A DNA stretch of 64,000 nucleotides, taken from NCBI GenBank assembly GCA_022414725.1, contig CM039467.1, forward strand, positions 16,629,966-16,693,965. The letters run 5' to 3'. A program made the translations under genes and the position numbers. Origin of the DNA: Microglena sp. YARC (Eukaryota > Chlorophyta > Chlorophyceae > Chlamydomonadales > Chlamydomonadaceae). Positions 4,985 through 64,000 of this stretch are shown here, in pieces. The stretch's first letter is position 1; every line of letters begins with the position of its first letter. A model generated the notes under the pieces. The model was given only the letters and a program-made list of their open reading frames with translations, did no database searches and was not told where the DNA came from.

Positions 4985-5336
4985 TGTCCATGAAAGCAGC
5001 TGATGCTCCCAAGGATGGCAAGAGTTCCAGAGACTCTTCTTCATGTGATAGGGACACTGCCCCAAATTCTACCCTCCCTGTCTAAGCTGAAGATGCATGA
5101 TCCCCCTTCATGTCCATGAAGGTAGCTGATGCTCCCAAGGATGGCAAGAGGTCCAGAAACTCTTCTTCATGTGATAGGGACACTGCCCCAAATTCTACCC
5201 TCCCTGTCTAAGCTGAAGATGCATGATCCCCCTTGATGTCCATGAAAGCAGCTGATGCTTGCAAGGATGGCGAGAGGTCCAACGAAATTCTACCCTCCCT
5301 GTCTAAGCTGAAGATGCATGAGCCCCCTTGATGCAG
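4985..5336 (+). pseudogene. Three tandem copies of the C-terminal coding end of the 4124 gene
   Basis: After the TAA at 4949-4951 the segment encoding residues ~245-275 plus its stop and 3' flank recurs starting near 4991, 5116 and 5240. Period is about 125-135 bp. The first two copies keep the ATGAAxGxAGCTGATGC start and the CCTCCCTGTCTAAGC stop context; the third has lost an internal block. More decayed ends (CCCTCCCTGTCTAA-like) appear near 5660 and 5735. They have no upstream gene body and are not independent genes. Confidence 0.9.
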
Positions 5337-5756
5337 TTGATGCTGCTGATAAGCTGTTGCTTGAACATGTATGTCACGTGAAGGCTTGCAATTGCTGTGC
5401 TGCATTTTGACCCCGAAGGTATAAAGTCCTGGTTAGAAACCAGCGCTTGAAACCAATGGGGCCAGGGTACTTCAGGAGGACCTCCAGATATGCTGCCTGA
5501 GACGCATCCAATTGCATAGCCTGCGTCCTGCGACGGTCCCTTCCTCTGGTCAACGGACCCCCCCAAATTGCATCCTGCAACGCAACAGAACCTTCGACGA
5601 TGCGTCTGGAACGGAGGACGCAGCGTCCTGAACAACCCTGCTTGACGCTGCACAGAAGTTTGCCCTCCCTGTCTAATCTGAAGATTAGGGACACTGTAGC
5701 AACTAGGGCTTGGAACCGATTGGACACTGCACAGAAGTATGCCCTCCCTATTTTCC
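5337..5756. repeat. Dispersed repeat E copy
   Basis: Contains GCGTCCTGCGACG, a GCAACGAACC-like block and GGAACGGAGGACGCAGCGTCC. These are shared with 34460-34650 and, in shorter form, 35640-35755, 37220-37400 and 44210-44460. It has no open reading frame. Confidence 0.6.
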
Positions 5757-6535: not shown

Positions 6536-6544
6536 GTAGTGACT

Positions 6545-7715: not shown

Positions 7716-7767
7716 TAACATACATACATACTAAATACATAGGTTTAGGAATAATGTCGTGGGGAGT

Positions 7768-10946: not shown

Positions 10947-13696
10947 ATGGTTGAGAAGAGGGCAAACGATCCCGATGAAACGGGATCGGATGCCAAAAAG
11001 CCTCGCGTTGATGCTGGAGCTTCTGCACCAGCGGCGACAAGGCCAGGGCTGTCCCTTGCAGCCTTGGAGAAAGCCAAGAAAGCACTTCAGCTTCAGAAGC
11101 AACTGAAGGAAAAGATGAAGAACTTGCCCCAGCTGCAGAAGGCTGCTGGTGCAGCTGCTAGCACACCTGTGTCGGTATTAGAAGCAGCAAAGAAGGCTGC
11201 AGAGATTGCATCCAAGATCACAAACGCTCCGGTGGTTGCACCTCCTATCCTGCAGCAACAGCCGGCAGCCCTCACTTCGTCTGTTGTCACGGCCCTATCT
11301 GGTATACCGGCAGCTGCATCCTCCTTCAAGGCCCCAGTCTTAAGACTGGACAGCCAGGGACGGGAGGTGGATGAGCATGGGAAGCCAATCCAGCGACAGG
11401 TTCAGGTGGTGAGCACACTGAAGGTCAACCAGCAACATGTGAAGGGGGCTCCTGCCCCTGCGCCTGCTAAGACAAGCTTCCTAGACCTCTACGCCCCTCC
11501 TGAGAATGAGGAGAGCGAATTCCACGACCCGCGCATGAGCGCTGGTGGGAAGAAGATGGACAGGAGGAAGCGCTCTGGCTTTGAGTTCGTGCAGGAGGGG
11601 CAGTTCCAAAAGCAAGCTGAGATGCTCAGGCTGAAGGCACAGTATGGAGAGGGCGCCATGAGGAGGGGGCCTGTACTGCCTAAGGGCCCCATCGGCCCTG
11701 GCTTGAAACCTAACGATGTACCCATTGGGGGGGGCCCACCTGGAAGCATGGATCCTAATTTGGTCCCTGTAAAACCTAGGACGTTCACCGCTGCCAGTGA
11801 TGAAGAAGAAAAAAGCGACGAGGAGACAGCTTCGACTGATAGTGAGGAGCTTGATGCGTTGGTCGATGTCATAGAGCCACCGCAGCCTGTGCCTGATGTA
11901 GAATGGTGGGACCGGCACCTGCTGGCTACAGGATCCTATGAGGAGGACATTGGCTTGGGGGAGGATGGGGAACCCAAAGATGGACTGGTGTCTATTAAAG
12001 AGACTAAGATCACCATTTATATTGAGCATCCTGTTCCGATCGAGCCTCCGGCCGAGGCCCCCCCTCCGCCCCCCCAGCCGCTCAAGTTGACGAAGAAAGA
12101 ACTGAAGAAGTTGAGGACGCAACGACGCAATGCTAGAGAGAAGGAGAAGCAAGAACTTATCAGGTGTGTGGGGGGTTGGAAGATTCTGGTCAATTAGACG
12201 TGCCATTTGAATCTGACAGGGATACCTCTTGTTCTTATATAATTTTCAGGTGCTGTGATATGATTGTTGATGGTAGAAGATGAAATGCATTTTATGTTAG
12301 AATGGCCTGAATACTCAGAAGATAGGAAATTGCTTTTTGAGAAACTTAGAATTTGTCAAAAATTGGCTGTTAAAAACTAGCATGAGGTTGGTCCTGAATC
12401 CTGAATCTTTTGAAGTCTGAAAGTATCTTCAAAAATGTATCAATAATTGTGATGAGAATCGCAAAATGATATAGTCTCTGTCAGTGCCGCTTTGGTTGAA
12501 AAAAACTTTGGACCCCTCTAACTTATGTACAACTTTATTTTGGGCTCAAAAAAACACTTGTTTTTAATATAGTTTGAAGATAGGCTCTATCCAAAGCGAA
12601 GGTGCGGTGCGGCAGCTTTTTTCTTGCCCCTCCCTCGGTCTCTGTCGAATATAGTCTCTGGTCTCTGTAGCATAAAGCCAGGGCCTAACGTCCGTGAGAC
12701 GATTTGTTGGGGGGCAGTTCATCAGTGCTTGTTTCCCCTTAATCCCCTCCTGGTATAGAGGTCGGGCAAGTCCCTTCAGCCTATTTGGCTACCCCTGGAC
12801 TGTGACATACGTACATACATACATACATACATACATACATACATACATACATACATACATACATGCATACATGCACATACCATTTGGATAGGCCGTTTGA
12901 ACATTAAACCAATTTGAACGTGATCAAAATTGAGCATTTGACCAATTGTATGTACCAATTTTGTATACCAAATTTATTTGAACACTATCCAGGTTGAACA
13001 CAATACTAATTTTATATACCAAATTTCATATATTAAATTTCTCGTTAAATTTAATTGAATATGATCAAATTTGAACACATTAGGTCATTTTGATGAAGTT
13101 CAAATCGCTGACTTCTAATGTAAGTTACATTCAGGAGCAAAGGCAGCTAACCTGCGCCGAGTGTTTCTAGGGCTAAAATGTCAGAATTCTCAGGCCAGAT
13201 TCTCAAGTGTAAAGTACAAATTACTAACTGCGAAGTGTTTAGAAAACCCAAATCCAAATAATCTGCTGAATGTCTGTAAGGTGGCTGACCTGAGACCGTC
13301 TGTCCACACTGCGCATGAAAGATGTGGTAAATCAAATGTAAATCAAATCAGGGATTTTCCCCCGCTATATATAGCGATTGCTACTTTTGACCCCCTTTTG
13401 GTTCACGCTTTACAAATTAACACAAAAGCTGTTTCCACTAAATGGCCTTAAAAGCGGTAAAAGCTGTGTCCACACTGTTAATGAAATATGTGGTAAATCA
13501 AATGTTAATCGAAGGCAAATCAAATGTAAATCAAATGTACAGCAAAGGTAAATCAAAGGTACATCAAAGGGAAATCAAAGGGAAATAAACTTGTATTATT
13601 TTTTAGTGTGATGCTAACTCGTAGGTTCCCCTTGACACCGTCAAGCCGCAGGCACGTTTGTAGTCAAGTAGGTTACCAGGATAATGTAACCACCAT

Positions 13697-13728
<32 letters not shown>

Positions 13729-14485
13729 CCATCATCGCCACTACCACTATCATCATCACAACGACCATCATCATCACCATCACCACCACCACCATTATCA
13801 TCATTGCAGGCAAGGACTGTTGGAACCCCCCAAGCCCAAGATTAAGATCGCCAACCTGTACCGAGTGCTGGGTGAGCAAGCAGTGGCCGACCCTACCGCC
13901 ATGGAGCAGGAGACAAGGAAGCAGATGGCCGAACGCCAGAACGCGCACGATGACCGTAACCTGGCTCGTCAGTTGACCCCAGCTGAGAAACGTGACAAGA
14001 AGATGAAGAAGCTGTTCGATGATAACCAGGTCGACCTCCAGTCAGCAGTATACAAGGTAACCCGCCTCAATGGGCAGCAAAAATTCAAGGTAGACATTAA
14101 TGCCAAGGAGAATCACCTCAAGGGAGCCCTGATCATGAGTCCCGACTTCTGCCTGGTGGCCGTCGAGGGTTGCAACAAGTCGATCAAAAGATACAATAAG
14201 CTTATGTTGAGGCGCATCGACTGGTCCGCGGAGCTGGAGAACCACAAGATATCCAGCGCCATGGACGAGGATGGAGACGAAGAGGAGAAGGAGGAGCCAT
14301 CGCCCAACACGTGTTCTTTGGTGTGGCATGGCTTGCTGAAGGAGAGCACCTTCAAGGACTTCCGGGTGTATACTGACAGCTCAGTCGAAGCGGCATGTGC
14401 CGTTCTGGAAAAGCACAGGGTCCGTCATTACTGGGACCTGGTTAAGAACTTCAACCCAGATGAAGCACCAGAGTTCGAGCTCTAG
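10947..14485 (+). CDS. PRP3: U4/U6 small nuclear ribonucleoprotein Prp3
   Basis: Prp3 helps hold the U4/U6 snRNA duplex in the spliceosomal tri-snRNP, in the nucleus. Exons are 10947-12163 and 13810-14485; splicing CAG|GTGTGT to TTGCAG|GCAAGG gives a continuous 630-aa protein. The N-terminus is lysine/alanine-rich with a helical stretch. At about residues 190-235 comes the Prp3 block (DPRMS, RRKRSGFEF, KQAEMLRLKAQYG), then VEWWDRHLL near 315. The junction reads LIRQGLLEPPKPKIKIANLY, the family signature, followed by RVLG and the C-terminal DUF1115-type domain (CNKSIKRYNKLMLRRIDW). Human PRPF3 is somewhat longer because it begins with a PWI domain, which is not seen here. The start is the ATG at 10947; the GTG before it is not used. 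The last ~40 codons are copied in tandem after the stop. Confidence 0.94.
12164..13809 (+). other. PRP3 intron 1 and its repeat content
   Basis: The 1646-bp intron contains repeat I (about 12490-12620; its inverse is at 25095-25245), repeat A with an (ACAT)n tail (12755-12865) and AT-rich degenerate repeats with ACCAAATTT (12900-13080). It also contains a short repeat-H copy (13350-13460), a 12-bp AAATCAAATGTA array (13490-13590) and an ATC/ACC trinucleotide tract (13692-13803) running into the acceptor. No exon copy is evident in this intron. Confidence 0.75.
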
Positions 14486-15408
14486 GCAGCACAAAGACTG
14501 ATCCTTTTCAGGCCTATGCTGACAGCTTAGTTGAAGTGGCATGTGCCTTTCTGGAAAAGCACAGGGTCTGGCATTTCCGGGATCCAGCCAAGAAAGGGAC
14601 CTGGGAGCATGCCAAGAACTTCAACCCAGACGAAGCATCAGAGTTAGAGCTCTAGGCAGCACAAAGACTGAACCTTTCCAGGCCCATGCTTACAGCTCAG
14701 TCGAAGCGGCATGTGCCGTTCTGGAAAAGCACAGGGTCCGGCATTACTAGGACCTGGTTAAGAACTTCAACCCAGATGAAACACCAGAGTTCGAGCTCTA
14801 GGCAGCACAAAGACTAAACCTTTTCAGGCATATGCTGACAGCTTAGATGAAGAGGCATGTGCCGTTCTGTAAAAGCACAGGGTCTGGCATTTCCGGGATC
14901 CAGCCAAGAAAGGGACCTGGGAGCATGCCAAGAACTTCGACCCAGACGAAGCATCAGAGTTAGAGCTCTAGGCAGCACAAAGACTGAACCTTTCCAGGCC
15001 TTTGCTTACAGCTCACTTGAACAGGCATGTGCCGTTCTTGAGAAGCATAGGGTTCACCATTACTGGGACCTGGCCAAGAACTTCAACTTAGACGGAGCAC
15101 CAGATTTAGAGCAATAGGCTGCACAAAAACTTAACCTTTCCAGGCCTATGCTAACAGCAAAATCAAACAGGCATGTGCACCATAGGTTGAGCTCTAGTCT
15201 GCTTAGCATCTTAGCAAGTAGCCCCTCCTGGTATAAAGAGTTGATCTTGATTATTCGAGGTTGGGCAAGTGCTCTCTTCCCTTTTAGCTACCCCTGGAAT
15301 GGAACATGCATACAATACAACCAGTAATTTTCTTTTCAGCTACGAGTTGCAGCTTCTAGGCAGGCCAAGAATTTCAACCTAGACGAAGCACCAGAGGTCG
15401 AGCTCTAG
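14486..15408 (+). pseudogene. Tandem partial copies of the last PRP3 exon
   Basis: Four copies of the C-terminal coding end follow the stop, ending at 14655, 14801, 14971 and 15117, with spacings alternating 170 and 146 bp. They are a higher-order dimer: copies one and three share an insertion (AAGAAAGGGACCTGGGAGC), while two and four resemble the true end. Each copy is preceded by a pyrimidine-rich string ending in CAGG (CCTTTCCAGGC), so each resembles a terminal exon with its own acceptor. Copies one and four are open to a stop; two and three carry early stops. Fragments remain near 15140-15196 and 15363-15408. Confidence 0.9.
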
Positions 15409-15985: not shown

Positions 15986-16029
15986 TGAAAATAAAATCTA
16001 TGAATACAGCACCTGGCTTGCTCCCTGGA

Positions 16030-18295: not shown

Positions 18296-18299
18296 AATT

Positions 18300-18800: not shown

Positions 18801-20799
18801 CGCCTGGACTTGGTTATGGGCTGTCACAATGTTGCTGACTTCCTTTTACATTGCCGAGGGCAGGAAATTGCTCATCTACGTCAAGCCAACACCACAGCAT
18901 CCGGGTAGGGTCTTCAACCTCTCCTTTAATAGTTTAAAGCAACAGGCAGTGTCACTATGGTATATATGTAGTATTGGTGGTTGGCCCCAGCGCAAGCGAA
19001 CGGGCTGGCCCCCTCAACCTCACGCCTTGTCAGGTTTATTAATTCATATACTTGCTAGTTTAAAAGGTCGTCCGCTTAGAACAATGCTCAGCCATGGACT
19101 TTGCAAGTACTTCGTTTAATGAACCATAATGCCGCTAGCCATAGCAATATAATATCGGTTGAGTAGATGTCCCATCTTTGATTACATTCTTTTATAAGGA
19201 GTGTGTTGTAGCAGGGGACTTCCACTGACCAAATTGGTCAGTGCTTTTTAGTGCAAAATTGGTCAGTGCTTTTTAGCGCACAAACGTCAAATTAGTGCAA
19301 AAAGCGCAAAAACTGCGCGTTGCACCCACAGGGGGTTGAAAAAACTGCGCGAAACGCGGTGGGGCTCAATAAAGCAGCGCGCCAGCCCGCATAAGTGCGC
19401 GCTTTGAAGTACCCTGTGGTGGAGTAGTGTTTAACTGTTTATGTTACCAATGTCTACTCCGCCTGCAGACGAGTAGCAGCCTTAAGGCTGACATGCCATG
19501 TAATCAGACCAATCCAATTCAAAGAAATTTGACGTCTTATGACGAGGCCAGGGTTGTTGAGAACGCTGCGTCTTGCGTAGGCAGGGTCTGTTGTGTCGCA
19601 GACGCAGATTGGGGGGGGGGGGGTCCAAGTCCTTAAACTGTCTCATCCGCTGAGTTTGCTCTCTGGTTTCTGTGATACCGGTAGTAACCTCGTGTGTATT
19701 TGTATTTCGGTAATTATATAAATACATGTGATTCCGGGCTAACGCTTGGTGGTCTAGTCGTTTCTGCCTGTCGCCTGATTTTTCTTAACAACCAGCTGGC
19801 TTCCTGACGCCTCAACCTTTTCGATTAGCATATGCCTTGCCCAATCCGTCCTGTGCGCACTTCCGACCCTCCAAGAATCCCAATTCGCTATTGTGATCTT
19901 CCTTCCGCATCGGAATGCCTGTAAGAAATGTCAAGTAGTTTTCAGTGGTCGACTTGTGTGGGTGGGGGGTGGGTGGGGGGGGGCATATAAGGGCGTTACC
20001 CATTAAAACGGTGGGAGTGGGAGGATGGCCAACGGTCTGCATCTCAAGAAGCAGCTTTTGAGACAGGCTGCAGACAATCCTGGATGAGGCGTGAGGTTGA
20101 GGGGGACAGCCCTTCCGCTTCCGCTGGGGCCAAAAACCAACTTTAATAGATGTCTCAACTCTCAAGGCCGTTGATCCACACGTTTACATGCTTCTCGCGG
20201 TGTGCGCATGAAAAACATGTCATGCCGACTTGTGCTAACTCTTGATTCACACGGCGAACAGCCAAATCAATGGCTGGAGCCATGTAACCAAGTTCAAGTT
20301 CTTGATATATATACACAACATAGCTGAAACAAATGTTTACTTCCGATGAGGCGATGATCAACAAACCTTAACTTCAGCTAACTAACCTGCATCTCTTGCC
20401 TCGTAAATACGCAAGTACTCAGCCCATCACGATCTCACCTAAAAAAAAGCCTACGGGACCGTATTACGGTAAACAAACTCAAGTTCAAATTCAACTTCAA
20501 GTATTACGGCCAGGGTACAAAATGACGTGCGCTATTGCGCGGTAGTGTGCAAGGTTTTGGAGCCCAAACGGCGATTGACGCAAATTTGTATAACCCCCCA
20601 AGGCGAAAGGTGTAGATTTCCGTTTTCAGTTGAGTCAAAAGCGCAACCCAAAGGAGGCAGTTGCGTCAAAAGCGCAACCCAAAATGACAAAATGTAGTAC
20701 CCTGATTACGGTACAAATCAACTCTAAGCCCAACTCTAAATCAACTCGAAACCCCTAAGAGTCACTAGGGTTGTTCTACACGCTGCGTGTTGCGTGACT
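18801..20799. other. No gene recognised; scattered repeats
   Basis: Repeat-D copies lie at about 18970-19030 and, in reverse, 20080-20145 (CCCCCTCAACCTCACGCCT). A short unit GGTCAGTGCTTTTTAGNGCA is duplicated near 19225-19285. Two blocks rich in GCGC words (19270-19420 and 20530-20700) share the AAAAGCGCAA theme. The 38-codon start of the frame at 18829 looks protein-like, but no family could be assigned. Confidence 0.45.
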
Positions 20800-22074: not shown

Positions 22075-23050
22075 CGCCCTTCATCTGTGTGCCATAGCTA
22101 GAAAGAGGCCCTACAGATGTTGGCCGCAGCTGCGTAGGTAACCACAGGTACCTAGGGCCGCTTCCTTCGAGGGCCATAGGTAGATCGATGCCCTTCATAT
22201 ATAGGGCACAGCTATTGTGGGCCACTTCATATGTGGGCCATAGCTAGATCAATGCCCCCCCAGATGCAGGGCACAGCTTATTTGAGCCCATTGATATGCG
22301 GTCCATAGCTAGGTAGGTGCCTCTCAGATGTAGGCCGCAGCTCATTTGAGCCAATTCATTTGTGAGACATTTCATATGTGGTCCATAGCTAGGTAGGTGC
22401 CTCTCAGATGTAGGCCGCAGCTCATTTGAGCCAATTCATATGTGAGACATTTCATATGTGGTCCATAGCTAGGTAGGTGCCTCTCAGATGTAGGCCGCAG
22501 CTCATTTGAGCCAATTCATATGTGAGACATTTCATATGTGGTCCATAGCTAGGTAGGTGCCTCTCAGATGTAGGCCGCAGCTCATTTGAGCCAATTCATA
22601 TGTGAGACATTTCATATGTGGTTCATAGCTAGATAGGCATCCTTCAGATGTGGGGCACGGCTCATTTGAGCCATTTCAAATGTAGGCCACAGCTATTAGA
22701 ACTTCATATGTGACCACTTCATACGAGGTCATAGCTAAATAGGTACCCCCCCTCAGAAGTAGGCCACAGCTCAGTTGAGCCATTACATATACGGGTCGTA
22801 GCTACATAGGTGCCCTTCAGATGCAGGGCACAGCTCATTTGAGCCACTTCAGAAGTAGGCCACAGCTCAGTTGAGCCATTACAGATGTAGGCCACAGCCA
22901 TTGTGAGTCACTTCATTTGTGAGCCCCTTCATATGTGGGCCATAGCTGCCCTCCATATGTAGGCCACAGCTATTGTGAGCTACTTCATATGTGAGCCCCT
23001 TCATATGTGGGCCATACCTGCCCTCCATATGTAGGCCACAGCTATTGTGA
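22075..23050 (-). repeat. Array of duplicated 3' coding ends of the methyltransferase gene
   Basis: Read on the minus strand, each unit carries a degenerate form of the final codons and stop of the gene ending at 23057 (parent CATAGCGATGGCCCACAAATGA; copies like CTAGCTATGGACCACATATGA). Four nearly identical ~94-bp units lie at about 22320-22625, and shorter, older ones on both sides. This places the array directly after the stop codon of its parent. Confidence 0.8.
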
Positions 23051-23056
23051 GTCACT

Positions 23057-29000: not shown

Positions 29001-29302
29001 CACGAAAGGCGAGTTAATTCAGTTGGCTGATCACCTTTCGTACTATTTTGCAATTCAGTGCATACAGTTCAGGCTTAGATCTCCCAAAGTATCCATCTTC
29101 TTAAGTGTAGAACAGCCAAGCGGGTAAGTTAATTCAGTTTGCTGATCACCTTATGTAATTCATAGCACTTCGGTGCATACAGTTTAGTCTTAGATCTCCC
29201 GAAGCATCCATCTTCTGCAGTGTAGAACAGCCAAGCGATGTGACTGAATTCAGTTTTTTTGTGTTTGGCCCCAGTGCAAGTTAATGGCTGCCCCCCCCCC
29301 CC

Positions 29303-44580: not shown

Positions 44581-47500
44581 CTAGAGCTTGGCTTCAACCA
44601 TCTCAAAAGTGCCGGTGATCCCCTCTTGTATTGCCTTAATGGCCTCATGTACTGCAATGGGATCTCGCGAAGTCACTTGGAGCTTTACCTTGAACCTCGA
44701 GTCCAGCTCGTCCACATTGGGGTAGGAGCCAATGTTGACCTGATAGGTGGCGGGGGTTTAAATGGGTGGTGGGGGCTGATATAGGTCGTGGGGGTTGAGA
44801 TGGGTGGTGAGGGCTGGCTTAGCTTCGCTTGGCGTGGAAAGGCATTGGTTGGGTGATGTATAAATCAATATAATTGTCCACATTGGGGTAGTAGCCAATG
44901 TTGACCTGATAGGTGGCGGGGGTTTAAATGGGTGGTGAAGGTTGAGATGGGTGGTGGGGGTTGAGATGGGTGGTGGGGGTTGAGATGGGTGGTAAGGGTT
45001 GAGATGGGTGGTGGGGGTTGAGATGGGTGGTAAGAGTTCAGATTGGTGGTGAGGCTTGGGGCTGGTTTGGCTTGGCTTGGACAGGCATAGGTCAGATGAT
45101 GTATAAATCAATATTCTCGTCCACAATGGAGTAGGACCCTATGTTGGCCTGATAGGTGGCGGGGGGTGGGGCTGGCTTGGCTTGGCTTGGACAGGCATAG
45201 GTCAGCTGATGTATAAATCAATATTCCCGTCCACATTGGGGTAGGACCCTATGTTGGCCTGATAGGTGGCGGGGGGATGGGGCTGGCTTGGCTTGGCTTG
45301 GCTTGGAAAGGTACAGGTCGGGTGATGTATAAGACAATATTATCGCCCACATTGGGGTAGGAAACTATGTTGACCTGATAGGTGGTTGGGGCTGGCTTGG
45401 CTCGGCTTGGAAAGGCATAGGTCATGTGGTGTATAAAACAATATCCTCGTCCACATTGGGGTCGAACCCTATGTTTGGCCTGATAGGTGGGTAGGGGTGA
45501 GATGGGTGGTGGGGGTTGATATAGGTGGTGGGAGTTGAGATGGGTGGTGAGGGTTGGAGCTGGTCTGGCTTGGAAAGGCATAGGTCAGGTGATGTATAAG
45601 ACAATATTCTCATCCACATTGGGGTAATGGGGTAGCCGGGTAGGATCCTATGTTGAACAGATAGGTGGTGGGGGTTGAGGTGGGTGTTGATGGTTGGGGC
45701 TGGCCTAGATCGGGTGATGTATAAGACAATATTCTCATCCACATAAGTCCCCCCTGACTCCGTCAAGCCAAGGGCACATTTAGAGTTCAGTAGGGCACCA
45801 GGAAAAAGTTCTATGCAGCGTCGCAAGCGAGCTTTGCTAAAATATGGCGGTCAGAGTTTTTTGCAACGGAGCGACAGCCAACAGGTGGCAACGGAAGCCA
45901 TTAGTTATTAGACCGTTGGCTTGACGTGGACAGGCTTCGTCTCGGTCAGACGGTCACACAGACGGGAAATGGGTAACCTGGGGGGGCCCTTGAAGAGGGG
46001 GCTCCGCTTTAATGTAATCATCATCACACAGGGTAGGCTCCATAATATTGAAATAAATGTGAATATGCTAGTCATGGTGTGGGCCCTAGTGATAAGCAAA
46101 CGGGCTGGCCCCCTCAACCTCACGCCTCGTAATAAGGCGTACTATTATTTATTTATGCTAGCCATGAATTCACTGGGACACTAACCTTGGGGTGAGCCTT
46201 TCACGACTTTTGACGACGCCCGTTTTGGGCCCAAATCATCGCTATAAAGAACCCCAATATGATGTGCACACTAAATGGCCCCCTAAAAGCTATAAAAAGC
46301 TATGGCACTGTCCAACATGGAGGAGGCCCACACCCATATAGCTATAAAAACCCACTTTCTGAACTGAATACAAATCCCTAGGGACAATAACCTTGGGGTG
46401 AGCCTTGGCAATGTCTGCCAATTCCTTCGCCGGATCACCCTCTCCTAGGTGGGTGTACAGGACATGGAACTGAAAAAAATCCATGGGGGACACTAACCTT
46501 GGGATGAGCCTTGGCAATGTCTGTCAATGCCTTCGCCAGGTCACCCTCGCCTAGGTGGGTGTACAGGACATGGCTTACATAGGAACCTCCGGTGAATCTC
46601 TCCTGCATTCATAAGTATGACATATTCATATGTGTGTACTATTTAGGCCAGGGCGCCAGGGCGCCAGGGCGCCAGGTCACCCTCACCTAGGTGGGTGTAC
46701 AGGACATGGCCATTCACACATGGTGGCCATTTATACATATTCATATGTGTGGTATTTGGTTGGGTGGTATTTAGATTATAGGTATTTAGTAGAGGGACCA
46801 TCACATACGGGCATATCATATCATGTAGACCAGAGGCGAGCATGATATCATATGATACCATACACACAGCATTATATGATATAGTATTATAAGGGTAACT
46901 TTTAAGCCTAGTCACTAATCAAGATTGATAATACGTATGTCTGTTATGTTAATGAAATATCAGATATGATAATATATATGTCTGTATGTTAGCAGTCCGA
47001 GGGCAGCCAAATAAAGCCTTAGGGACCTTGCCCATCCTCGAAAATAATCAAGATTACGGACGCAACAACCAACAAACCAACTAACTTACCAGTTAGGCTA
47101 CAGGGACTTGCCCATTCCTCAATAATCAAAATGATTGTAGAACTGTCCAGAGGAAGTACAAACTGTAACTTCATCACAACCCAGTCTGGCACGCTTGTAC
47201 ATCCCCAAGCCAATATAATAAAACGATTCTAGACTATCCCGAGGAAAGTAACAAAACTGTACTTCATCACACCCAGTCTGCACGCTGTACACCCCCAGCC
47301 AAACAGCAAATCCTTAGAATGGGCTGGCCCCCTCAACCTCACGCCTCATAACAAGGCGTACTATTTATTTATGTATCCTTAGTGCTTTTATTTTTTTTGG
47401 AGTCCCTTCCTATAACAGTTGGGCAAGTCCCCTTAAGCTTATTTGACCTACCCCCTGGACCTGTAACATACATACATCCGTAGAATGGAGTTTTACCTGA

Positions 47501-50500
47501 TCACACTGTTTGTCCCTAATACAACTGTACAATACTATACATACATACATACACACATACATACATACATAATACATACATAACATACCTGTAACAAATC
47601 CTCAGAAAACTGCAATTATCTCAACTCACATCCTCATTACAAGGCATACTATGTTTGTTGCTTATTTGTGAACACATGCATGTCCCCACCCTTGTAGATT
47701 AACACACGCAATAAGCAACACCACCCACCAGGCCACTTACTACCACGCACCTGGAAGGGAGTTTACGCTGATGAGCAGTGGATCATCGATTTGAAAAGCT
47801 TGGAATCCTGCAAGGTTTACGGGGGTGGCTTAAGAAACAGAAATATGAATAATAGGCAACATACAGGCATCATGCAAGGGATTGTTTCCCACTATAATAT
47901 AAGCGATCGCTAGTTTTGACCCCGTTTTAAGCGAAATTATCGCTATTCTAAAAGTCTAAATATGTTTTTTTTGGGCCTTTAATGCCACCAAAAAAGCTAC
48001 CAAAAAGCATAAAACCTAAAAACAAAACACTAAAAACGCTGTCCCTGGAGAGGCTCAAAACCAAAAGCTAGAAAAAACCACTTTCCAGAATTTTGACAGA
48101 AAAATCAACATTACACAAACATATATACACGCATACACACACAGAGTAAAAAATTCACCCTGTTCCCCCCCTTTAAACAACACGCCAGGTAAGATGTACA
48201 CGCCCTTGCAAGGTACCAGGTTGAAGATAAACCTAAGCCCCCCCCCCCCCCACCCACCCCCCCCCCACCACTCCCAGCACAACCACACAACTCACCGAGG
48301 TCTGACATTCACCCCCAAGACCAGCCGAGGACAACCCTTAAACCACCAGAAATGTAGACCCTTTCAGGTACCAGGGATAAGAAAACATAGCCCCCATTAC
48401 CCCCTCCCCCCACCCCCGAACCCCCACCGCAACCGACAACTCAACCCAGGTTGCCGTTCACCTCCAGACACCCATTCACTCACGCTAGCCCCCTCCTTGA
48501 CTCACCCAGTTAGGATGTAACACCCCTTGCAGGTTGAACCAGAGGTACCTAAGTAACAGGGGTGAAGAGAACCAGCCCCTCTCCATTACCCCCCCCCCCC
48601 CCCCCCTCACACACACACAACTCACCTAGGTCCACATCACTCCCAGGCCACCCAACGACATCCATTCACTCAGCCAGCCGCACAGTCCCCCCCTTGAACT
48701 CACCCAGGTAGAATGTACACCCCTTGCAAGGTTGACCAGAGGCACCAGTCCCCACCTGACTCACCCAGTCCGCACCCCTTGATCACCCAGGTAGAAAGTA
48801 CACCCCTGCAGGTTGACCAGCAGGCACCCAGGTCCCCCTTGACTGCACCAGCCCCCCCTTGACTCACCAGGCTAGATATGTACACCTTGCAGGTTGACCA
48901 AAGCACCCAGGTCCCCCTTGACTCACCCAGCCCCCTTGGATTCAACCAGTTAGAATGTTCACACCCTTGCAGGTTGACAGAGGACCCAGGTCGCCCCCTT
49001 TGAGCTCACGTCCCCTTGACTTCACCAGGTAGAATGTACACCCCCTTGCAGGTTGACCAGAGGCACCCAGTCCCCCCTTGACTCACCCAGCCCGCCCCTT
49101 GACTCACTCAGGTAGAATGTACACCCTTTGCAGGTTGACCAGAGCACCAGGTCCCCCCTTTGACTCACCCACCCCCCTTGATCACCCAGGTAGAATGTAC
49201 AGTCCCTTGCAGGTTGACGCAGAGGCACCCAGGTCCCCCTTGACTCGCCCAGCCCCCCTTGACTCACGCCGGTAGATGTGATACCTTCAGGTTTGGACCA
49301 GAGCACCCAGGTCCCCCCTTGACTCACCCAGCCCCCCCTGACGTCACCAGGTAGAATGTAACCCCTTGCAGTTGACCAGAGGGCACCCAGGTCTCCCCCT
49401 TGTCACCCAGCCCCCTTGACTCACTAGCCAGGTAGAATGTACACCCCTTGCAGGTTGACCAGAGGCACCCAGGTCCCCCTTGACTCACCCAGCCCCCTTG
49501 ACTCACCCAGGTAGAATGTACACCCTTGCAGGTTGACGGCAGAGGCACCCAGGTCCCCCTTGACTCGCCCAGAGCCCCACCTTGACTCACCCAGGTCGAA
49601 TGTACAGCCCTTGCAGGTTGACCAAGAGGCACCCCGGTCCCCCTTTGACTCACACCAGGCCCCCCCTTGACCACCCACGGTCCCGAATGTACAACCCCTT
49701 TGCAAGTGTTGACCAGAGGCACCCAGGTCCCCCTTGACTCACCAGCCTCCCCCCTTGAACTCATCCCAGGTAGAATGACACCCCTTGCAGGTTGACCGGC
49801 GAGGCCCCCAGGTCCCCTTGAACTCACCCAGCACCCCCCTTGACTCACCCAGGTAGAATGTACACCCCTTGCAGGTTGCACCAGAGGCCCCACCCAGGTC
49901 CCCTTGACTTCGCCCAGCCCCCTTCACTCACCCCAGGTAGATACTGTACACCCCTTGCAGTTGACAGAGGCACCCAGTCCCCCCTTGACTCACCCAGCCC
50001 CCCCCTTTGACTAACCAGGTAGAATGTAACCCCTTGCAGGTTGACCAGAGCCACCCCAGGTCCCCTTGACTCACCCAGCCCCCCTTGACTCACCCAGGGT
50101 AGATGTACACCCCTTGCAGGTTGACCAGAGGCACCGACCAGGTCCCCCTTGACTCACCAGCCCCCCCGGTTGACTCAACCAGGTAGAATGTTTCACCCTT
50201 GCAGGTTGACAGAGGCACCCAGGTCCCCCCTTGAACTCACCCAAGTCCCCCCCTTGACTCACCCAGAGTATGAATGTACACGCCCTTGCAGGTTGGACCA
50301 GAGCACCCAGGTCCCCCTTGACTCACTTACCCCCCCCTTGACTCACCGCAGGTAGAATGTACACACCCCCTTGCAGGTTGCCCAGAGGCACCAGGTCCCC
50401 CCTTGACTCACCAGCACCCCCTTGCAGACTCACCCAGGTTAAATGTAACACCCCCTTGCAGGTNNNNNNNNNNNNNNNNNNNNNNNNNNNNNNNNNNNNN

Positions 50501-53500
50501 NNNNNNNNNNNNNNNNNNNNNNNNNNNNNNNNNNNNNNNNNNNNNNNNNNNNNNNNNNNNNNNNNNNNNNNNNNNNNNNNNNNNNNNNNNNNNNNNNNNN
50601 NNNNNNNNNNNNNNNNNNNNNNNNNNNNNNNNNNNNNNNNNNNNNNNNNNNNNNNNNNNNNNNNNNNNNNNNNNNNNNNNNNNNNNNNNNNNNNNNNNNN
50701 NNNNNNNNNNNNNNNNNNNNNNNNNNNNNNNNNNNNNNNNNNNNNNNNNNNNNNNNNNNNNNNNNNNNNNNNNNNNNNNNNNNNNNNNNNNNNNNNNNNN
50801 NNNNNNNNNNNNNNNNNNNNNNNNNNNNNNNNNNNNNNNNNNNNNNNNNNNNNNNNNNNNNNNNNNNNNNNNNNNNNNNNNNNNNNNNNNNNNNNNNNNN
50901 NNNNNNNNNNNNNNNNNNNNNNNNNNNNNNNNNNNNNNNNNNNNNNNNNNNNNNNNNNNNNNNNNNNNNNNNNNNNNNNNNNNNNNNNNNNNNNNNNNNN
51001 NNNNNNNNNNNNNNNNNNNNNNNNNNNNNNNNNNNNNNNNNNNNNNNNNNNNNNNNNNNNNNNNNNNNNNNNNNNNNNNNNNNNNNNNNNNNNNNNNNNN
51101 NNNNNNNNNNNNNNNNNNNNNNNNNNNNNNNNNNNNNNNNNNNNNNNNNNNNNNNNNNNNNNNNNNNNNNNNNNNNNNNNNNNNNNNNNNNNNNNNNNNN
51201 NNNNNNNNNNNNNNNNNNNNNNNNNNNNNNNNNNNNNNNNNNNNNNNNNNNNNNNNNNNNNNNNNNNNNNNNNNNNNNNNNNNNNNNNNNNNNNNNNNNN
51301 NNNNNNNNNNNNNNNNNNNNNNNNNNNNNNNNNNNNNNNNNNNNNNNNNNNNNNNNNNNNNNNNNNNNNNNNNNNNNNNNNNNNNNNNNNNNNNNNNNNN
51401 NNNNNNNNNNNNNNNNNNNNNNNNNNNNNNNNNNNNNNNNNNNNNNNNNNNNNNNNNNNNNNNCCCCGTAGACTTAACCAGGTGTGTGTTGTTAGAGAGA
51501 GAGAAAGAGAGGGAGAAATTTCACGCAACGTCATGATATGGGGCTTAGTATGAGTGAATGGCCTTTTGTAGCATGTGAGTGTATGCGCATGAGACTGTGT
51601 GACTGTGTTTCTGTATGTGACTGTGTGTGCCTTGTTTTAGTGTTTGTGTGAGAGTGACTGTGTTTGTGTGTGTTTGTGAGCCTGTGTGCTTATGTGTGTG
51701 TTTGTTTTGTGTCTTTGTGTATTTTTGTACGTTTAACTGTGTGTGTTTGCATGGACTGCGTCAGTGTTCTTTTGTGTGTGACTCTTGCTGTGTGAGTGTG
51801 ATTGTGTTGTATTGTGTTGTGATGTGGTATTTGTTGATGTGTCTGTATTGCGAGGGTTGTTGAGGTGGGTGTGTACTGTGTGTCACCAGAATCTAATCCG
51901 TATGACAACAGATCCTTCACCATGAATATTAAAAAACAAACTCATTTGCATCACACCTGCCAAAATCCATTTCCAATGACCCACCACCACACCATCACGA
52001 CAATCACCACCACACAAGTTATCGTACATGCCAAATCTATTGCAACGACGCACCACTGCTCACCAACGAATGACGACCGCAGACCACCACACCGTTATAA
52101 TTTCATACCTGCGGCCTGAATTCTCGTCACCGTAATGACGCCCCCCCCCCCCCGCCCCCCCCCCCCCCCCCCCACCACACACACACCAACCACCCCGTCA
52201 CCACGTGCTACCACCACACCCGTGTTATCGCACCTGCCCAAATCTCAACACAAATGACCACCCCCACCCCCACCACATGCGACCAGCTCACCACACACCG
52301 TTAATCGTACCTGCCTAAATTCTCATACTTCCCAAAGACCCCGCGCGCCCCCCCTCATCCGCGCGCGGCACTCACGCGCCATCCACGTTGTCACCCATGA
52401 CCAACCCCACAATAATTCATCACCACAAGCGACCCCATGCACCAACCACCACCACCACCCCACCATCACACCCGTTTATCCGTACCTGCAAAACTCTCAT
52501 TCCATGACCCACCCCCACCAATCACCACAAGCACCCCAGTACCCACCACCACCACCACAATGACCATGCACACCCGTTTATCGCAACATGCCAAAATCTC
52601 ATCACCAATAACCACCCCACCCCACCATCACCACAGCACCCCATTGTGCCATCACCTACCACCACCACGTGCGCCGAGCTATCACCACAACCCGTTTATC
52701 GCCCTGCCCCCAAAATCTCATCACCAAAAACCACGCCCCACATCACCACGAAGGACCCCATGTACCATTCCACCACCACCACCACCAGTGGCCCGAGCTA
52801 TGACACACCTGTTTATCGGCACTGCCAAAATTCTCATCTCAATGACCACCCCACCACCACCACCACCACCACACCCAGTTATCATACCTGCCAGACTCAT
52901 CCACCAATGACCACCCCCACCACCCACAACAAGCACAAGCACCCCATGTACCACCACCACCAACACCAGCTATCGTAACTGCCTGAGTCTCATCGACCAA
53001 CGACACCCCCACCCCCACCATCACCACCCATGTACCACCAACCACACATTTTTTTATAGTACCTGCCAGAATCTCATCACCAATGACCACCCCCACCATC
53101 ACCACGAGCACCCCATGTGCCACCACCACCACCACCACGACAATCACACCCGTTTAATCGTACCTGCCAAAATCTCATCACCAATGACCATGATAGCTGC
53201 CCTGGGGAAGGTATCAGGGATCCGCAGCGCACTCACATGATTTGCCGGCGGGTGAGGCTCTGGGTTTAGGAGGCACGTTTGAGGTAGATTAGTTTTGTGT
53301 TAATGGTTGTTTGTTGAGGTTGTTTGTTGTTGGTTGATGATTCGGTTTTGGTGTTGTATGTGTCATGTGTGTATGTAGTAGGTATCTGGGCGATGCCACA
53401 GACGCACTCACATGGGTTGTGCAGCGGGTGAGGCTCTTGGGGATACGGCAGGCAGACTCCCGGTGTGTGGAGGTTAGTTTAGTTTTGTTTATGTGTTTGT

Positions 53501-59139: not shown

Positions 59140-59175
<36 letters not shown>

Positions 59176-62100
59176 ACACACACCACACACACACCACCTG
59201 CACACACACCTGCACGCACTCCTACTTATGCCACCTGCATCTGCTCTGTGCACATCGCTCCCACACACCTGCACACACACACGCACACACACATGCACAT
59301 CAGCAAGTACCTGCACACACCACACACACATGCGTGCACACAACAGCAAAGACCTGCACACACACCACACACATCAGCAAAGACCTTCACACACACCACA
59401 CACACACCTACTTACGCCATCTGCACCTACTCTGTTCCCAGCACCCGGGATCTCAGCCTCCCCCAGTGAAGACAACTTGAGATATTTTAATGTCATGATC
59501 CTTGGACCCACACAATCACCATATGAAGGTGGGTGGGTATGGGTGCTGGGTCTGATACATGTAGGCGTGATGGGGTTTGGTGTGTACATGTGCGTATTCA
59601 TCCCCTCCTGTGACAACAGTTTCGAAATATTTTAATGTCATTATCCTTCGACCCACACAATCACCATATGATGGTGGGTGGGTATGGTGATGGAGTTCGG
59701 GTGTTGGGGTGCTGTGGTGGGTGTGCACCATGTGAATTTGTGTAGGGTGTTCATATGGGTGGGTGGATGGGTGGAAGTGGTGCATGTGTGAGTTTGTTTT
59801 TCTCCCTTTGTGAAGATAACCTGGAAGTATCTGGTGCAGATGTTGTGGATTTGTGTGATGTGCGTTTTTGTGGGTGGGTGGGTGAGTCGGGGGGGGGGGG
59901 GGACAGGCATATGGATCAAAAATAGTCTTTTCGTGATACTTCTTTATGATCTTGTTCATGAGTGAATGGCAATATGATATCAAGTCATCATATGATGCTG
60001 GCAGTCTGACTAGGCTAAAGATACCATTTATATACAATATCATGTGATGCAATTTGATCAATTCCCGTCCCACCTATTGCTCTGATAGCCAACACTCTCC
60101 GCCAATTTTCTGCGTTGATTGCGACGCTCCTAGGACTCCTAGGTCATCTATTAAGCCACTCCATATTAAAACAGATTAATAAAGAAGTACGGTATCCAGA
60201 CAATCATGAATAGGGACCGGCATATCATATGATGTTGACAAAAGGCGAGTATGATATCATATGATATCATACAAATGGCATCATATGCTATTGTATATAA
60301 ATTGCAACTTTAACCTAGTCCGACTGCCGGCATCATATGATGACACGATATCATATGATATCATACTGCTGTTCCCTACCCATGCGTGCCTCCATAAAAT
60401 CCAGGTTGAGTGTTTAAGCTGGAGCTCTTTGTGTCTGAACACTTAAGCGCACACATAGGGATTCAAACTCAGCACCTTCTTCAGTCCAGCAAAATAGCCA
60501 ACCATTAAACCATTCACCGAACCAGGGTGAACGTGTGGACAGATAATCAGACAACAAGGTGACTCTGGGGGCTCTCACCCCCCACAATCTGCAAAACATA
60601 TGAAACCTTGTCCAATTCACCCATGCGTTCCTCCATGAAACACAGGTGGAGTGTTTAAGCTGGAGCTTTTCTTGCCTGAGGACTACCCCATGGCGCCCCC
60701 CAAGGTAGGTGTGTAGTGCAGATTTGCTTACCTTAGCATAGTATAGTCAAGTAGAATCGAGTAGGGTAGAGTGTACGTAGGTGTGTAGTGCAGATTTGTT
60801 TAGCTTAGCATAGTATAGTCAAGGAGAATCGAGTAGGTTACAGTAGAGTGTAGGTAGGTGTGTAGTGCAGATTTGTTGAGCTTAGCATAATGTAGTCAAG
60901 TATAATCGAGTAGGATACAGAAAGGTGGAGATTTTATATCAGAGCATAACGTAGTGAAGTATAATTGTTTGTTCGCGTGTTTGATGAGCTGCTGCAGTTT
61001 TGCTTCTTGACAAAAGCTACCATCCCAACATACATGGGATGTTGTGCTACTGCAGGTTCGCTTCTTGACGAAAATCTACCACCCCAACATTGACAAGTTG
61101 ACCCGTATTTGGCTACCCATGGACTGTGACATATATAATCTGCGTTATATGTATCCCCACACCCTGCTGCACCTCATCCTGTCACACCCTACACCCTGCT
61201 ACACCTCTCCCTGCTACACCCTACTCCATCTCATATCTGGGTGGTATTTTGATGCTGCAGGTTTGCTTCTTGACAAAAATCTACCACCCCAACATTGACA
61301 AGTTGGCCCGTATTTGGCTACCCATGGACTGTAACATGCAACTTATGTGCCACATGTATCCTCACACCCTGTTACATTCTACACCCTGCTACATCTGATA
61401 CATGTGTGATGTGCTGCTGCTGCTGCAGGTTTCCTTCTTGACAAAACATCTACCACCCCAACATTGACAAGTTGGCCCGTATTTGGCTACTCATACCCAA
61501 ACATTGACAAGCTGGCCCGTATTTGGCTACCCATGGACTGTAACATACAACATCTGTGTCATGTATCCCCACACCCAGTTGCACCCTACGCTCTGCTAGA
61601 TCTGATACATGAGTGATGTGCTGCTGCTGCAGGTTCCCTTCTTGACAAAAATCTACCACCCAAACATTGACAAGCTGGGCCATATTTGGCTTCTCATACC
61701 CAAACATTGACAAGCTGGGCCATATTTGGCTTCTCATACCCAAACATTGACAAGCTGGGCCATATTTGGCTACCCATGGACTGTAACATACAACATCTGT
61801 GTCATGTATCCACACACCCTACACCCTGCTACATCTCATACATGTGTGATGTGCTGCTGCAGGTTCGCTTCTTGACGAAACATCTACCACCCCAACATAC
61901 GTGTGATGTTGTGCTATTGCAGGTTCGCTTCTTGACAAAAATCTACCACCCCAACATTGACAAGTTGGGCCGTATTTGCTTGGACATCCTGAAAGACAAA
62001 TGGAGCCCAGCCTTGCAGATCCGTACTGTCCTCCTCAGGTAAATACACCCGTGTACATGTATGAACCGCCCATGTATGTGTACCTTGCAGATTCGTACTG

Positions 62101-64000
62101 TCCTCCTCAGGTAAATACACACATGTGTATGTATGAACCGCCCATGTGTGTGTACCATGCAGATCCGTACTGTCCTCCTCAGGTAAATACACACATGTGT
62201 ATGTACGAACCGCCCATGTGTGTGTACCTTGCAGATCCGTCCTGTCCTCCTCAGGTAAATACTCACATGTGTATGTACGTACTGCCTGTGTGTGTGTACC
62301 TTGCAGAGCCGTACTGTCCTCCTCAGGTAAATACACACATGTGTATGTACGTACTGCCTGTGTGTGTGTACCTTGCAGATCCGTACTGTCCTCCTCAGGT
62401 AAATACACACATGTGTATGTACATACTGTCCATGTATGTGTGCCTTGCAGATCCGTACTGTCCTCCTCAGGTAAATACACACATGTGTATGTGCGTACTG
62501 CCTGTGTGTGTGTACCTTGCAGATCCGTACTGTCCTCCTCAGGTAAATACACACATGTGTATGTATGAACCGCCCATGTGTGTGTACCTTGCTGATCCGT
62601 ACTGTCCTGCTCAGGTAAATACACACATGTGTATGTGCGTACTGCCTGTGTGTGTGTACCTTGCAGATCCGTACTGTCCTCCTCAGGTAAATACACACAT
62701 GTGTATGTACGTACTGCCTGTGTGTGTGTACCTTGCAGATCCGTACTGTCCTCCTCAGGTAAATACACACATGTGTATGTACGTACTGTCCATGTGTGTG
62801 TGCCTTGCAGATCCGTACTGTCCTCCTCAGGTAAATATACCCATGTGTATGTACGTACTGTCCATGTATGTGTGCCTTGCAGATCCGTACTGTCCTCCTC
62901 AGGTAAATACACCCATGTGTATGTACGTACTGTCCATGTATGTGTGCCTTGCAGATCCGTACTGTCCTCCTCAGGTAAATACACCCATGTGTATGTACGT
63001 ACTGTCCATGTATGTGTGCCTTGCAGATCCGTACTGTCCTCCTCAGGTAAATACACCCATGTGTATGTACGTACTGTCCATGTATGTGTGCCTTGCAGAT
63101 CCGTACTGTCCTCCTCAGGTAAATACACACATGTGTATGTACTTTTCATTTTTATGTACCCCCCATGAGTACGTGCCACTAATATTTATTCATCGTGCAG
63201 ATCCATACTGTCCTCTTCAGGTATTTGCTTAGCCATATGTACTTTGCATTGCTATTTGTGATGTGCTGCTCTTCAGGCAGTCATAACCCCTATGTGTGTG
63301 CCTCCGCTTTTTATGCCTGTTGCAGTTCAGTACTGTCCTCCTCCTTACAACTACCCTCCCTACCCCCCCCCCCCCCCCCCCCACACACACATCTCCTGCA
63401 GTATACAAGCACTGCTCAGCTCACCTAACCCCGATGACCCCCTGCGGAAGACATTGCCAAGGCCTGGAGGACTAACGAGTCTGCTGCTATAGCCACAGGT
63501 GGGATTGGCAATCTAGGCTAGGAAGTAGTTGTAAGGCTGTGTTGGGGGAGGGGGGGGGGGGGGGGGTAAAAGGGGGGAGGGGAGGATAACATTAGGTCAG
63601 ACGGCACTGACAGATTACAAGACTGTTGCTATGCTGCAGGTGGATTGGGTTGTGGTCAGTAAGGCGGGGGGAGGGGGGGGGGAGTACAGGGTGGAGGGGG
63701 AGATAACATTAAGTCAGACGGCACTGTCAGATTACGAGTTTGCTGCTATGGCCACATGCGGGATTGGCAATATAGGGCTGGGGAACTAGTTGTAAGGCTG
63801 TGTGTGTGGAGGGTGGAGGGGGGGGATAACATTAAGTCAGACGCCACTTACAGATTACAAGACTGATGCTATGATGCAGGTAGGATTGGGTTTTGGTTAT
63901 AAGGCAGGGGGGGGTATAGGGTGGAGGGGGGGATAACATTAGGTCAGGCAGCACTGACAGATTACAAGACTGTTGCTATGCTGCAGGTCGTATTGGGTTG
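58036..64000 (+). CDS. UBC13: Ubiquitin-conjugating enzyme E2, Ubc13/UBE2N type (3' end beyond window)
   Basis: Ubc13, paired with a UEV partner, makes Lys63-linked ubiquitin chains for DNA-damage tolerance and signalling. Exons: 58036-58065, 58697-58724, 59442-59528, 60646-60704, 61923-62038 and 63402-63498. Joined they read [56 protein letters not shown], then [19 protein letters not shown] with the catalytic cysteine at position 87 as in human UBE2[12 protein letters not shown], and [12 protein letters not shown]. Phases match at every junction. In exon 6 one base is missing after CTG at 63444: the frame resumes as [11 protein letters not shown], so an assembly error or a real frameshift is present there. 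The last ~12 codons lie beyond 64000; 63499 onward is intron with repeat copies of the exon 6 end. All exons from 3 on are accompanied by decayed copies. Confidence 0.95.
58066..58696 (+). repeat. UBC13 intron 1 with three repeat-J copies
   Basis: GTCTATCAGCCTGCAGGCCGC, TCTATCAGCTCACTGTCTGC and TCTATCAGCCTTCATGCTGATC lie at about 58168, 58406 and 58510. Each is followed by a GGCGGAG-AACATGGG-like block. The same element occurs at 10605 and 34262. Confidence 0.6.
58725..59441 (+). repeat. UBC13 intron 2: poly-G, poly-C and (CA)n
   Basis: A G-run lies at about 58812-58850, C-runs at about 59118-59173, and CACACA-rich sequence from 59050 to 59400 with several CAGCAAAGACCTNCACACAC units. ATCTGCNCCTNCTCTGTNCNCA near 59227 and 59420 suggests a copy of the exon 3 acceptor region. 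Confidence 0.65.
59529..60060 (+). pseudogene. Decayed copies of UBC13 exon 3
   Basis: About 59603-59690 repeats exon 3 and its donor: GAAATATTTTAATGTCATTA, then CGACCCACACAATCACCATA and GGTGGGTGGGTATGG. A more decayed copy starts near 59810 (TGTGAAGATAACCTGGAAGTA). Neither is open in the right frame across the exon. The rest of the stretch is GTGGGTGGG-rich with a G-run at 59890-59902. Confidence 0.85.
60061..60645 (+). repeat. UBC13 exon 4 acceptor copy with SINE G and repeat F insertions
   Basis: About 60381-60430 copies the exon 4 junction (CATGCGTGCCTCCATAAAATCCAGG, then TTGAGTGTTTAAGCTGGAGCT). It is cut by a SINE-G fragment (60430-60520, GGGATTCAAACTC) and a repeat-F end (60528-60600, GTGACTCTGGGGGCTCTCAC). 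ATCATATGATATCAT palindromes lie at 60220-60275 and 60328-60370. Confidence 0.8.
60705..60990 (+). repeat. Donor-side array after UBC13 exon 4
   Basis: The intron start GTAGGTGTGTAGTGCAGATTTG is repeated at 60705, 60777 and 60856, with the following GCTTAGCATAGTATAGTCAAG. Period is about 70-80 bp. Only intron sequence and the splice donor are duplicated here. Confidence 0.85.
60991..61922 (+). pseudogene. Acceptor-side copies of UBC13 exon 5 fused to repeat A ends
   Basis: Copies of the junction GCTGCAG|GTTCGCTTCTTGAC with 30-55 coding bases lie at about 61003, 61055, 61260, 61429, 61634 and 61864. In most the codons for [10 protein letters not shown] continue into ATTTGGCTACCCATGGACTG and TAACATACA, which is the 3' part of repeat A. 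Secondary copies of the CCCAAACATTGACAAGCTGG piece follow at 61495, 61698 and 61738. The true exon at 61923 is the only one continuing into GRICLDIL. Confidence 0.92.
62039..63401 (+). repeat. 72-bp array of UBC13 exon 5 ends: 15 microexon-like copies
   Basis: After the exon 5 donor (TCCTCCTCAG|GTAAATAC at 62038) a 72-bp unit repeats with constant period to about 63125. Each unit is ATCCGTACTGTCCTCCTCAG, then GTAAATACACACATGTGTATG, TACGTACTG and TGTGTGTGTACCTTGCAG. So every unit has an acceptor (CCTTGCAG), a 20-nt coding segment and a donor. The CCTTGCAG is itself exon 5 coding sequence in the parent. Two older copies lie near 63198 and 63325. A C-run lies at 63363-63382. Confidence 0.95.
63499..64000 (+). 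repeat. Donor-side array of UBC13 exon 6
   Basis: Exon 6 ends AACGAGTCTGCTGCTATAGC then CACAG|GTGGGATTGG. Copies lie at about 63615-63650, 63730-63775, 63850-63890 and 63960-64000 (AGATTACAAGACTGTTGCTATG, CTGCAGGTGGATTGGG), alternating two variants at ~115-120 bp. G-rich spacers and GATAACATTAGGTCAGACGGC lie between. The array leaves the window. Confidence 0.9.

Follow-up and report, generated by a model that had tools for sequence, protein, structure and literature searches.

Local tandem duplication is pervasive in a stretch of 64,000 nucleotides from the green alga Microglena sp. YARC (positions 16629966-16693965 of contig CM039467.1 in assembly GCA_022414725.1, which comprises 568 Mb in 2390 contigs; this whole stretch is called the window below), where copies of exon edges lie in the adjoining introns and 3′ flanks. 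Six genes were modelled in the window: an open reading frame (ORF) for a membrane protein, PRPF3, an LCM-type methyltransferase, a lipocalin-like gene, a FLAD1-like FAD synthase and UBE2N. An initial annotation had described these copies as serial duplications of the boundaries of nearly every exon, produced by a process tied to exon edges. The copies themselves were confirmed; a process aimed at edges found no support in the form proposed. We attribute them, with good though not full confidence, to pervasive generic tandem duplication with breakpoints that show little regard for genes, selection on exons acting as a filter. A modest preference of duplication for edges, acting besides the generic process, is possible.

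The edges examined in the window numbered 36, namely 16 acceptors, 15 donors and 5 stops, start codons being left out. Two criteria were used. In the junction query, with queries of up to 60 bases, an outward copy had to lie within 4 kb and to contain at least 10 exonic bases; in the self-BLAST, the repeat had to extend at least 15 bases to each side of the junction and lie within 3 kb (E-value cut-off 0.01 for the window and 0.002 for the 10-kb loci treated below). The junction query revealed outward copies on the same strand at 22 of the 36 edges, in line with the annotated figure of at least fifteen affected boundaries, and all six genes had such copies beside one exon or more. They amounted to 107, of which 101 crossed the junction. 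Self-BLAST detected copies at 20/36 edges (8/16 acceptors, 9/15 donors and 3/5 stops). The annotated polarity was likewise found at the 22 edges, acceptor-side copies lying upstream and donor-side copies downstream. The statement that nearly every exon is affected did not hold, as 14 of the 36 edges had no copies. The claim that the arrays consist of the exon's own boundary stood for copies in all six genes and failed for the PRPF3 intron, where microsatellite-like arrays are present and neither the self-BLAST nor the junction query found exon copies.

Copies were found after each of the four stops that had been annotated as repeated (4951, 14485, 23057 and 37781), although the one at 37781 was single, partial and did not reach across the stop. 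No copy followed the stop of the FAD synthase gene (44581). None of the four start codons (4124, 10947, 33440 and 42863) was spanned in the self-BLAST, which also showed no local direct repeats within 400 bases upstream of them. This cleanness, unlike the state of the 3′ flanks, is probably due to selection on start codons and promoters. Local inverted copies were absent from all 36 window edges and from the 64 edges of the other genes described below, compared to direct copies at 20/36 and 24/64, so that the copies are arranged head-to-tail on the same strand as in minisatellite-like duplication. In the window as a whole, 42% of the bases were in local direct repeats versus 2.7% in inverted ones.

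The copies were 66 to 98% identical to their parents, which reflects a range of ages. In the alignments their exonic reach varied from about 13 to 180 bases and took in the whole exon in the case of LCM exon 3; the breakpoints are therefore not fixed relative to the splice site. Splice-site look-alikes are multiplied, as had been proposed: GT was retained in 37 of the 43 donor copies that cross the junction and AG in 39 of 45 acceptor copies. The match of these dinucleotides to the parent was 0.92 for donors and 0.93 for acceptors, compared to 0.90 and 0.86, respectively, at neighbouring positions. A decay of the copies with distance from the parent was not confirmed as a rule, since only 8 of the 13 edges with at least four copies showed a negative trend (median rho −0.23).

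These features can be accommodated by the following scheme. Pervasive local tandem duplication in the nuclear genome, by slippage or unequal exchange, would place successive copies typically some 50-300 bases apart, and array growth and decay by point mutation would follow. Duplications within an exon would break the protein and be lost. When a duplication spans an acceptor, a donor or a stop, the functional copy would stay against the exon and the other would come to lie in the intron or in the 3′ flank and be tolerated there as a presumably neutral sequence that splicing may ignore. Such a selection filter alone could account for the edge copies and their outward direction, for the scarcity of copies inside exons and for start codons free of them. 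The polarity would arise because the protein is preserved only if the exon-contiguous copy is used; being forced by selection in this way, it is not evidence for a special process.

The CCT chaperonin family was chosen in order to leave a window that had been picked for its pattern. A genome search listed 64 matches, 37 of them inside seven multi-exon loci that were fetched because they fitted into 10 kb. The 37 matches gave 34 exons after one with unclear edges, one copy of an exon tail and one merged with its neighbour had been set aside, and the 68 edges were reduced to 64 by removal of four unclear ones. Edges were placed by a motif script, except for seven positions, two of them stops, that were set by hand after viewing the sequence, which could bias the count (L029 3485, 6463, 8832 and 9026; L030 2573; L031 8781; L034 8433). 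Junction-spanning copies were found at 24/64 edges (13/33 acceptors, 11/29 donors and 0/2 stops), leaving 40 edges free of them, and were directed outward at all 24. Window and CCT loci taken together, exon-edge copies were present at 44 of 100 splice and stop edges by self-BLAST. The pattern thus extends beyond the window; it is weaker there and lies near the output of the turnover model described below. The paralogues L032 and L033 share 70-83% identity in their exons, and in one and the same exon the arrays lie at the acceptor in L032 (1680) and at the donor in L033 (2029), which points to recurrent births. L033 also contains an in-frame intron with acceptor-side copies (3714-5395) at a place where L032 has a continuous exon (around 3852-3875); judged from the two sequences, this may be a gain or, equally well, a loss in L032.

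Repeats were not confined to exon edges. Local direct repeats covered 56% of the window introns and 40% of its intergenic DNA, and in 20 random 10-kb stretches of the genome they covered 36.6% on average (0-84%). With a stricter, junction-type measure the values were 52% for window introns, 35-36% for intergenic DNA, 52% for CCT introns and 33% for the random stretches. TRF arrays, counted up to a unit length of 500 bases, made up 28% of 20 random 10-kb stretches, and dispersed repeats covered 19% of random stretches when only 264 kb were compared. Random intron points fell into local repeats in 51.5% of cases, predicting 18.5 edges with copies against the 20/36 observed (P = 0.37); all noncoding points together predicted 15.4 (P = 0.08). 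Probes of 40 bases gave copies at 23/40 edges including start codons, 13/86 exon-interior points, 94/150 intron points and 79/190 intergenic points. Points at least 60 bases from the edges within exons had copies in 10/167 cases in the window and 20/197 in the CCT genes, a scarcity that selection predicts. The initial annotation had taken similar copy numbers in exon interiors and intergenic segments as the mark of generic duplication. This picture was half recovered, introns matching or exceeding the edges, but exon interiors being poor in copies and intergenic DNA of this window lying below the edges.

Coverage as a function of distance showed a mild slope and no sharp peak at the edge. In the window, the last 20 exonic bases had a value of 0.66 and the first 20 flanking bases one of 0.69, with 0.57 at distances of 200-400 bases and 0.50 at 400-800. 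In the CCT genes it was 0.39 in the last exonic bases, below the 0.48-0.57 found in the introns. The plain comparison with intron points was rejected as sole evidence for the lack of an excess, because arrays inflate present-day introns while each junction counts once, which makes it a size-biased control; the case shows that edges and present-day introns are compared with a bias wherever arrays inflate introns. A collapsed coverage, in which each position is weighted by 1/(copy number), was therefore added. It amounted to 0.19 for window introns, 0.11 for intergenic DNA, 0.23 for CCT introns (0.52 before collapsing) and 0.126 for the random stretches. Without the edge families the window introns gave 0.14, a rough value that rests on an over-split family count; the count itself, from connected components (131 edge families), was not used.

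Several results weigh against duplication that is wholly indifferent to edges. Relative to collapsed introns, window edges were about 2.9-fold enriched (56% vs 19%), and CCT edges carried copies in 38% of cases vs 23%. For the 12 intron-bearing genes pooled, 43 of 99 edges had copies where collapsed coverage predicted 25.0, a ratio of 1.72 with a 95% interval of 1.3-2.5 from a bootstrap over genes; the membrane-protein ORF (1/1) has no intron and is left out of this figure. Present-day coverage predicted 53.6. The 20/36 window edges also exceeded intergenic points (35.8%, 12.9 expected; P = 0.0125). Neutral tandem duplication was then simulated in gene-like sequence, forbidding only the disruption of exons and start codons and applying the same BLAST scoring. 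Plain duplication (300 runs, 101 of them matched in intron coverage) gave a mean of 6.9 of 36 edges (standard deviation 2.8) and a maximum of 14. Identity-dependent array growth (191 runs, 66 matched) gave a mean of 8.0 and a maximum of 15, or 18 over all runs, and addition of turnover by insertion and deletion (144 runs, 56 matched) raised the mean to 11.4 (standard deviation 2.9) and the maximum to 18. No run, including pilots of 24 and 23 runs, reached the 20/36 of the window. From fits to the runs, about 22, 27 and 37 of the 99 pooled edges were predicted by the plain, growth and turnover models, respectively, vs 43 observed, so that the turnover model alone comes close. A conserved parent as the only cause of the edge excess was simulated as well and proved too weak. 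The models are crude, and the fraction of young inserted DNA is an unconstrained input.

The excess may instead mean that exon boundaries and stop codons, or wherever else a constrained and transcribed segment comes to its end, are favoured starting points of duplication, exons acting as permanent seeds that pump edge copies, splice sites included, into introns; we consider this a minority possibility. If true, edge seeding would help to drive intron growth in the 568-Mb genome and would keep a standing stock of acceptor and donor sites. In its mechanistic form, in which edges are preferred templates owing to transcription, splicing-coupled R-loops or nucleosome barriers and seed many of the intron arrays, the proposal appears slightly less likely still. 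The 1.72-fold ratio, the excess over intergenic points and over every simulated neutral run, and the LCM gene with copies at 8 of its 9 edges argue for it. Coverage, however, has no sharp peak at the edges, the exonic reach varies widely, many arrays in introns and intergenic DNA contain no exon sequence, and stop codons are affected too. The excess is also smaller outside the window: for the CCT edges, the binomial probability was 0.0012 under the plain model, 0.017 with identity-dependent growth and 0.40 with turnover, a model that gives 35% of edges with copies vs 38% observed. Generic duplication filtered by selection remains our preferred reading. The repeat content of random stretches and a coverage profile without a sharp edge peak speak for it, the enrichment of edges over collapsed introns and intergenic points against it.

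The initial annotation had further linked the arrays to a route proposed for new introns, the duplication of coding segments that contain AGGT. This link is weak, and an explanation by the Rogers model of intron birth, with the arrays as by-products of ongoing gain, is very improbable. The AG or GT kept in many copies and the L033 intron, found where its paralogue has uninterrupted exon, would fit it. Yet a unit within coding sequence that supplies both splice sites was not what was observed: 101 of the 107 copies comprise an existing junction or stop with its flank. The intron or 3′ sequence present in most copies shows that these are younger than the intron. Duplication also affects stop edges, exonic reach varies, and the paralogue difference is explained equally well by intron loss in L032.

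Two further explanations seem less credible again. Selection on the copies, for instance as splicing regulators or decoys, could be seen in the lack of GT/AG depletion and in the greater density of green-algal tandem repeats near intron ends (PMC3887541), but conservation at splice positions does not clearly exceed that of their neighbours and array patterns differ between CCT paralogues as similar as L032 and L033. Manufacture or multiplication of arrays by unpolished long reads or gap filling would suit the noisy region at 48-54 kb with its gap and the frame interruptions in UBE2N and lipocalin exons, but is at odds with the divergence of the copies (66-98% identity) and with the same pattern on other large contigs.

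The gene models on which the edges are based are as follows. The predicted membrane protein is encoded by a single-exon ORF (4124-4951, plus strand) whose product is identical to the 275-aa protein P0001; its membrane nature was judged from the sequence. PRPF3, on the plus strand, has exon 1 at 10947-12163 (PF08572) and exon 2 with the stop at 13810-14485 (PF06544/PF08572), and is a 100% match to the EukProt protein P0003; its best-scoring named relative is Chlamydomonas eustigma, at 48%. For Chlamydomonas sp. ICE-L, an alga that shares a clade with C. eustigma, a genome of 532 Mb is reported (PMC11228838).

The LCM methyltransferase is one gene of five exons on the minus strand (33440-23057) and matches EukProt P0123, the first species-named hit being from Haematococcus lacustris. 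P0123 supports exon 1 with the ATG (33288-33440), exon 2 (31574-31840, also PF04072) and exon 4 (25910-26084), and exon 3 (28515-28645) was fixed with this model of the organism's own; a first placement of an exon at 29551-29608 was discarded on the same grounds. The donor at 31574 is GC rather than GT, as P0123 implies. Exon 5 with the stop (23057-23181) is absent from P0123 and has a counterpart in the relatives P0124-P0128: P0123 runs past the donor at 25910 into the intron, without the last exon that these relatives have (23057-25910). Edge arrays may mislead gene prediction, for which P0123 serves as a practical warning. A Pfam scan of the minus-strand frames gave no match between 22.9 and 30.7 kb, and between 37.3 and 47.2 kb FLAD1_M alone was above its family cut-off.

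The gene at 42863-37781 on the minus strand, which we take to be lipocalin-like by resemblance, was built by exon modelling with exons at 42438-42863 (also seen as an ORF), 41285-41478, 38382-38530 and 37781-38066. Four exons were placed for the FAD synthase gene (minus strand, 53201-44581), and some are missing from the model: an early exon putatively assigned by similarity (53164-53201), a tentative exon at 47751-47807 and one at 46498-46602, both from exon modelling, and the last exon (44581-44739), which matches PF24102; beyond that match the FAD synthase label is a putative one, based on resemblance. The region of 48-54 kb is noisy by eye, rich in indels and interrupted by a gap of 1000 N, and copy numbers there are therefore unreliable. 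UBE2N was modelled on the plus strand with four exons between 59441 and 63498, at 59441-59528 (PF00179, below the family cut-off), 60646-60704 (exon modelling), 61923-62038 (profile match and exon modelling) and 63402-63498 (exon modelling). The last of these and lipocalin-like exon 4 each contain one frame interruption, which suggests assembly errors.

In the LCM gene, the minus-strand arrays comprise decayed acceptor-side copies (31841-32486) and a donor-side array with a 109-base unit (31242-31573) at exon 2, an acceptor-side array (28646-29256) and donor-side copies (27320-28514) at exon 3, acceptor-side and donor-side arrays of 15 and 7 copies at exon 4 (26085-27161 and 23672-25909, respectively) and an array of the stop with its 3′ flank (22171-23056). 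Coding ends are likewise repeated with their 3′ flanks, on the plus strand, in the membrane-protein ORF (4856-5333, unit of about 126 bases) and PRPF3 (14360-15363). On the minus strand, the lipocalin-like gene has copies on the acceptor side (41479-42051) and donor side (39890-41284) of exon 2, an acceptor-side array at exon 3 (38531-39510, unit of about 154 bases) and a single acceptor-side copy at exon 4 (38127-38196). The FAD synthase gene, also on the minus strand, has an acceptor-side array at its last exon (44740-45744), a donor-side copy at exon 46498-46602 (46361-46497) and donor-side copies at the early exon, in noisy assembly (51957-53163). An array of about 21 copies on the same strand (48553-50463), which by eye resembles a donor-side exon end of this gene, was excluded from all counts.

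In UBE2N, on the plus strand, exon 59441-59528 has one donor-side copy (59604-59687), exon 60646-60704 one acceptor-side copy (60378-60438) and exon 63402-63498 donor-side copies (63499-64000). Exon 61923-62038 is flanked by an acceptor-side array of 6 copies (60978-61922) and a donor-side array of 17 copies with a 72-base unit (62039-63142). Most of the 17 units contain AG, 20 exonic bases and GT and could, going by these motifs, in principle serve as 20-base mini-exons. By eye, the acceptor-side copies at 61057-61790 change from exon sequence to the terminal part of a dispersed repeat, the two meeting at a short word common to both, which may mark a template switch; the dispersed repeat also occurs in the window near 12790 and 15490. 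Elsewhere, a segment of about 195 bases at 20511-20708 is repeated on several large contigs, with 83-87% identity for 39 of the 46 genome matches listed, and is possibly a mobile element.

This genome offers a natural test bed for the choice of the spliceosome among near-identical sites, for intron growth and for the ways in which new exons or introns could arise from duplications that cross junctions. No report of exon-edge arrays on such a scale was found in searches of an open-licence library, and with 28% of random stretches in TRF arrays and edge copies at 44/100 edges the scale seems new. Individual elements of the pattern have known counterparts. In Chlamydomonas reinhardtii and Volvox carteri, introns have the highest density of tandem repeats, with a concentration near the intron-exon junctions (PMC3887541). 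That survey covered units of 1-50 bases and gave 42,059 bp/Mbp for C. reinhardtii, whereas the TRF arrays here, counted up to 500 bases per unit, occupy the fraction of random stretches just given, by measures not identical to those of the survey, and the units beside exons contain exon sequence. Introners resemble the present arrays as repeated DNA in the introns of many genes (PMC9860276). They are, however, transposable elements that place copies of themselves in many genes, with a unit that lacks host exon sequence, while the copies described here hold the neighbouring exon's own bases and adjoin the edge of their host gene. In Drosophila, introns were gained where coding sequence that contains a proto-splice site was duplicated, according to the Rogers model (PMC2891723); exonic sequence is locally duplicated in tandem in both cases, but within coding sequence in Drosophila and mostly astride an existing junction or stop in Microglena. 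Another counterpart is the potato RdRp gene, where a tandem duplication running from the 3′ end of an intron into the beginning of the exon created a new intron (PMC4974935). There, too, the duplicated segment crosses an intron-exon boundary, in a single intron-making event, as opposed to the roughly one hundred copies at 22 edges seen here from the genome sequence alone.

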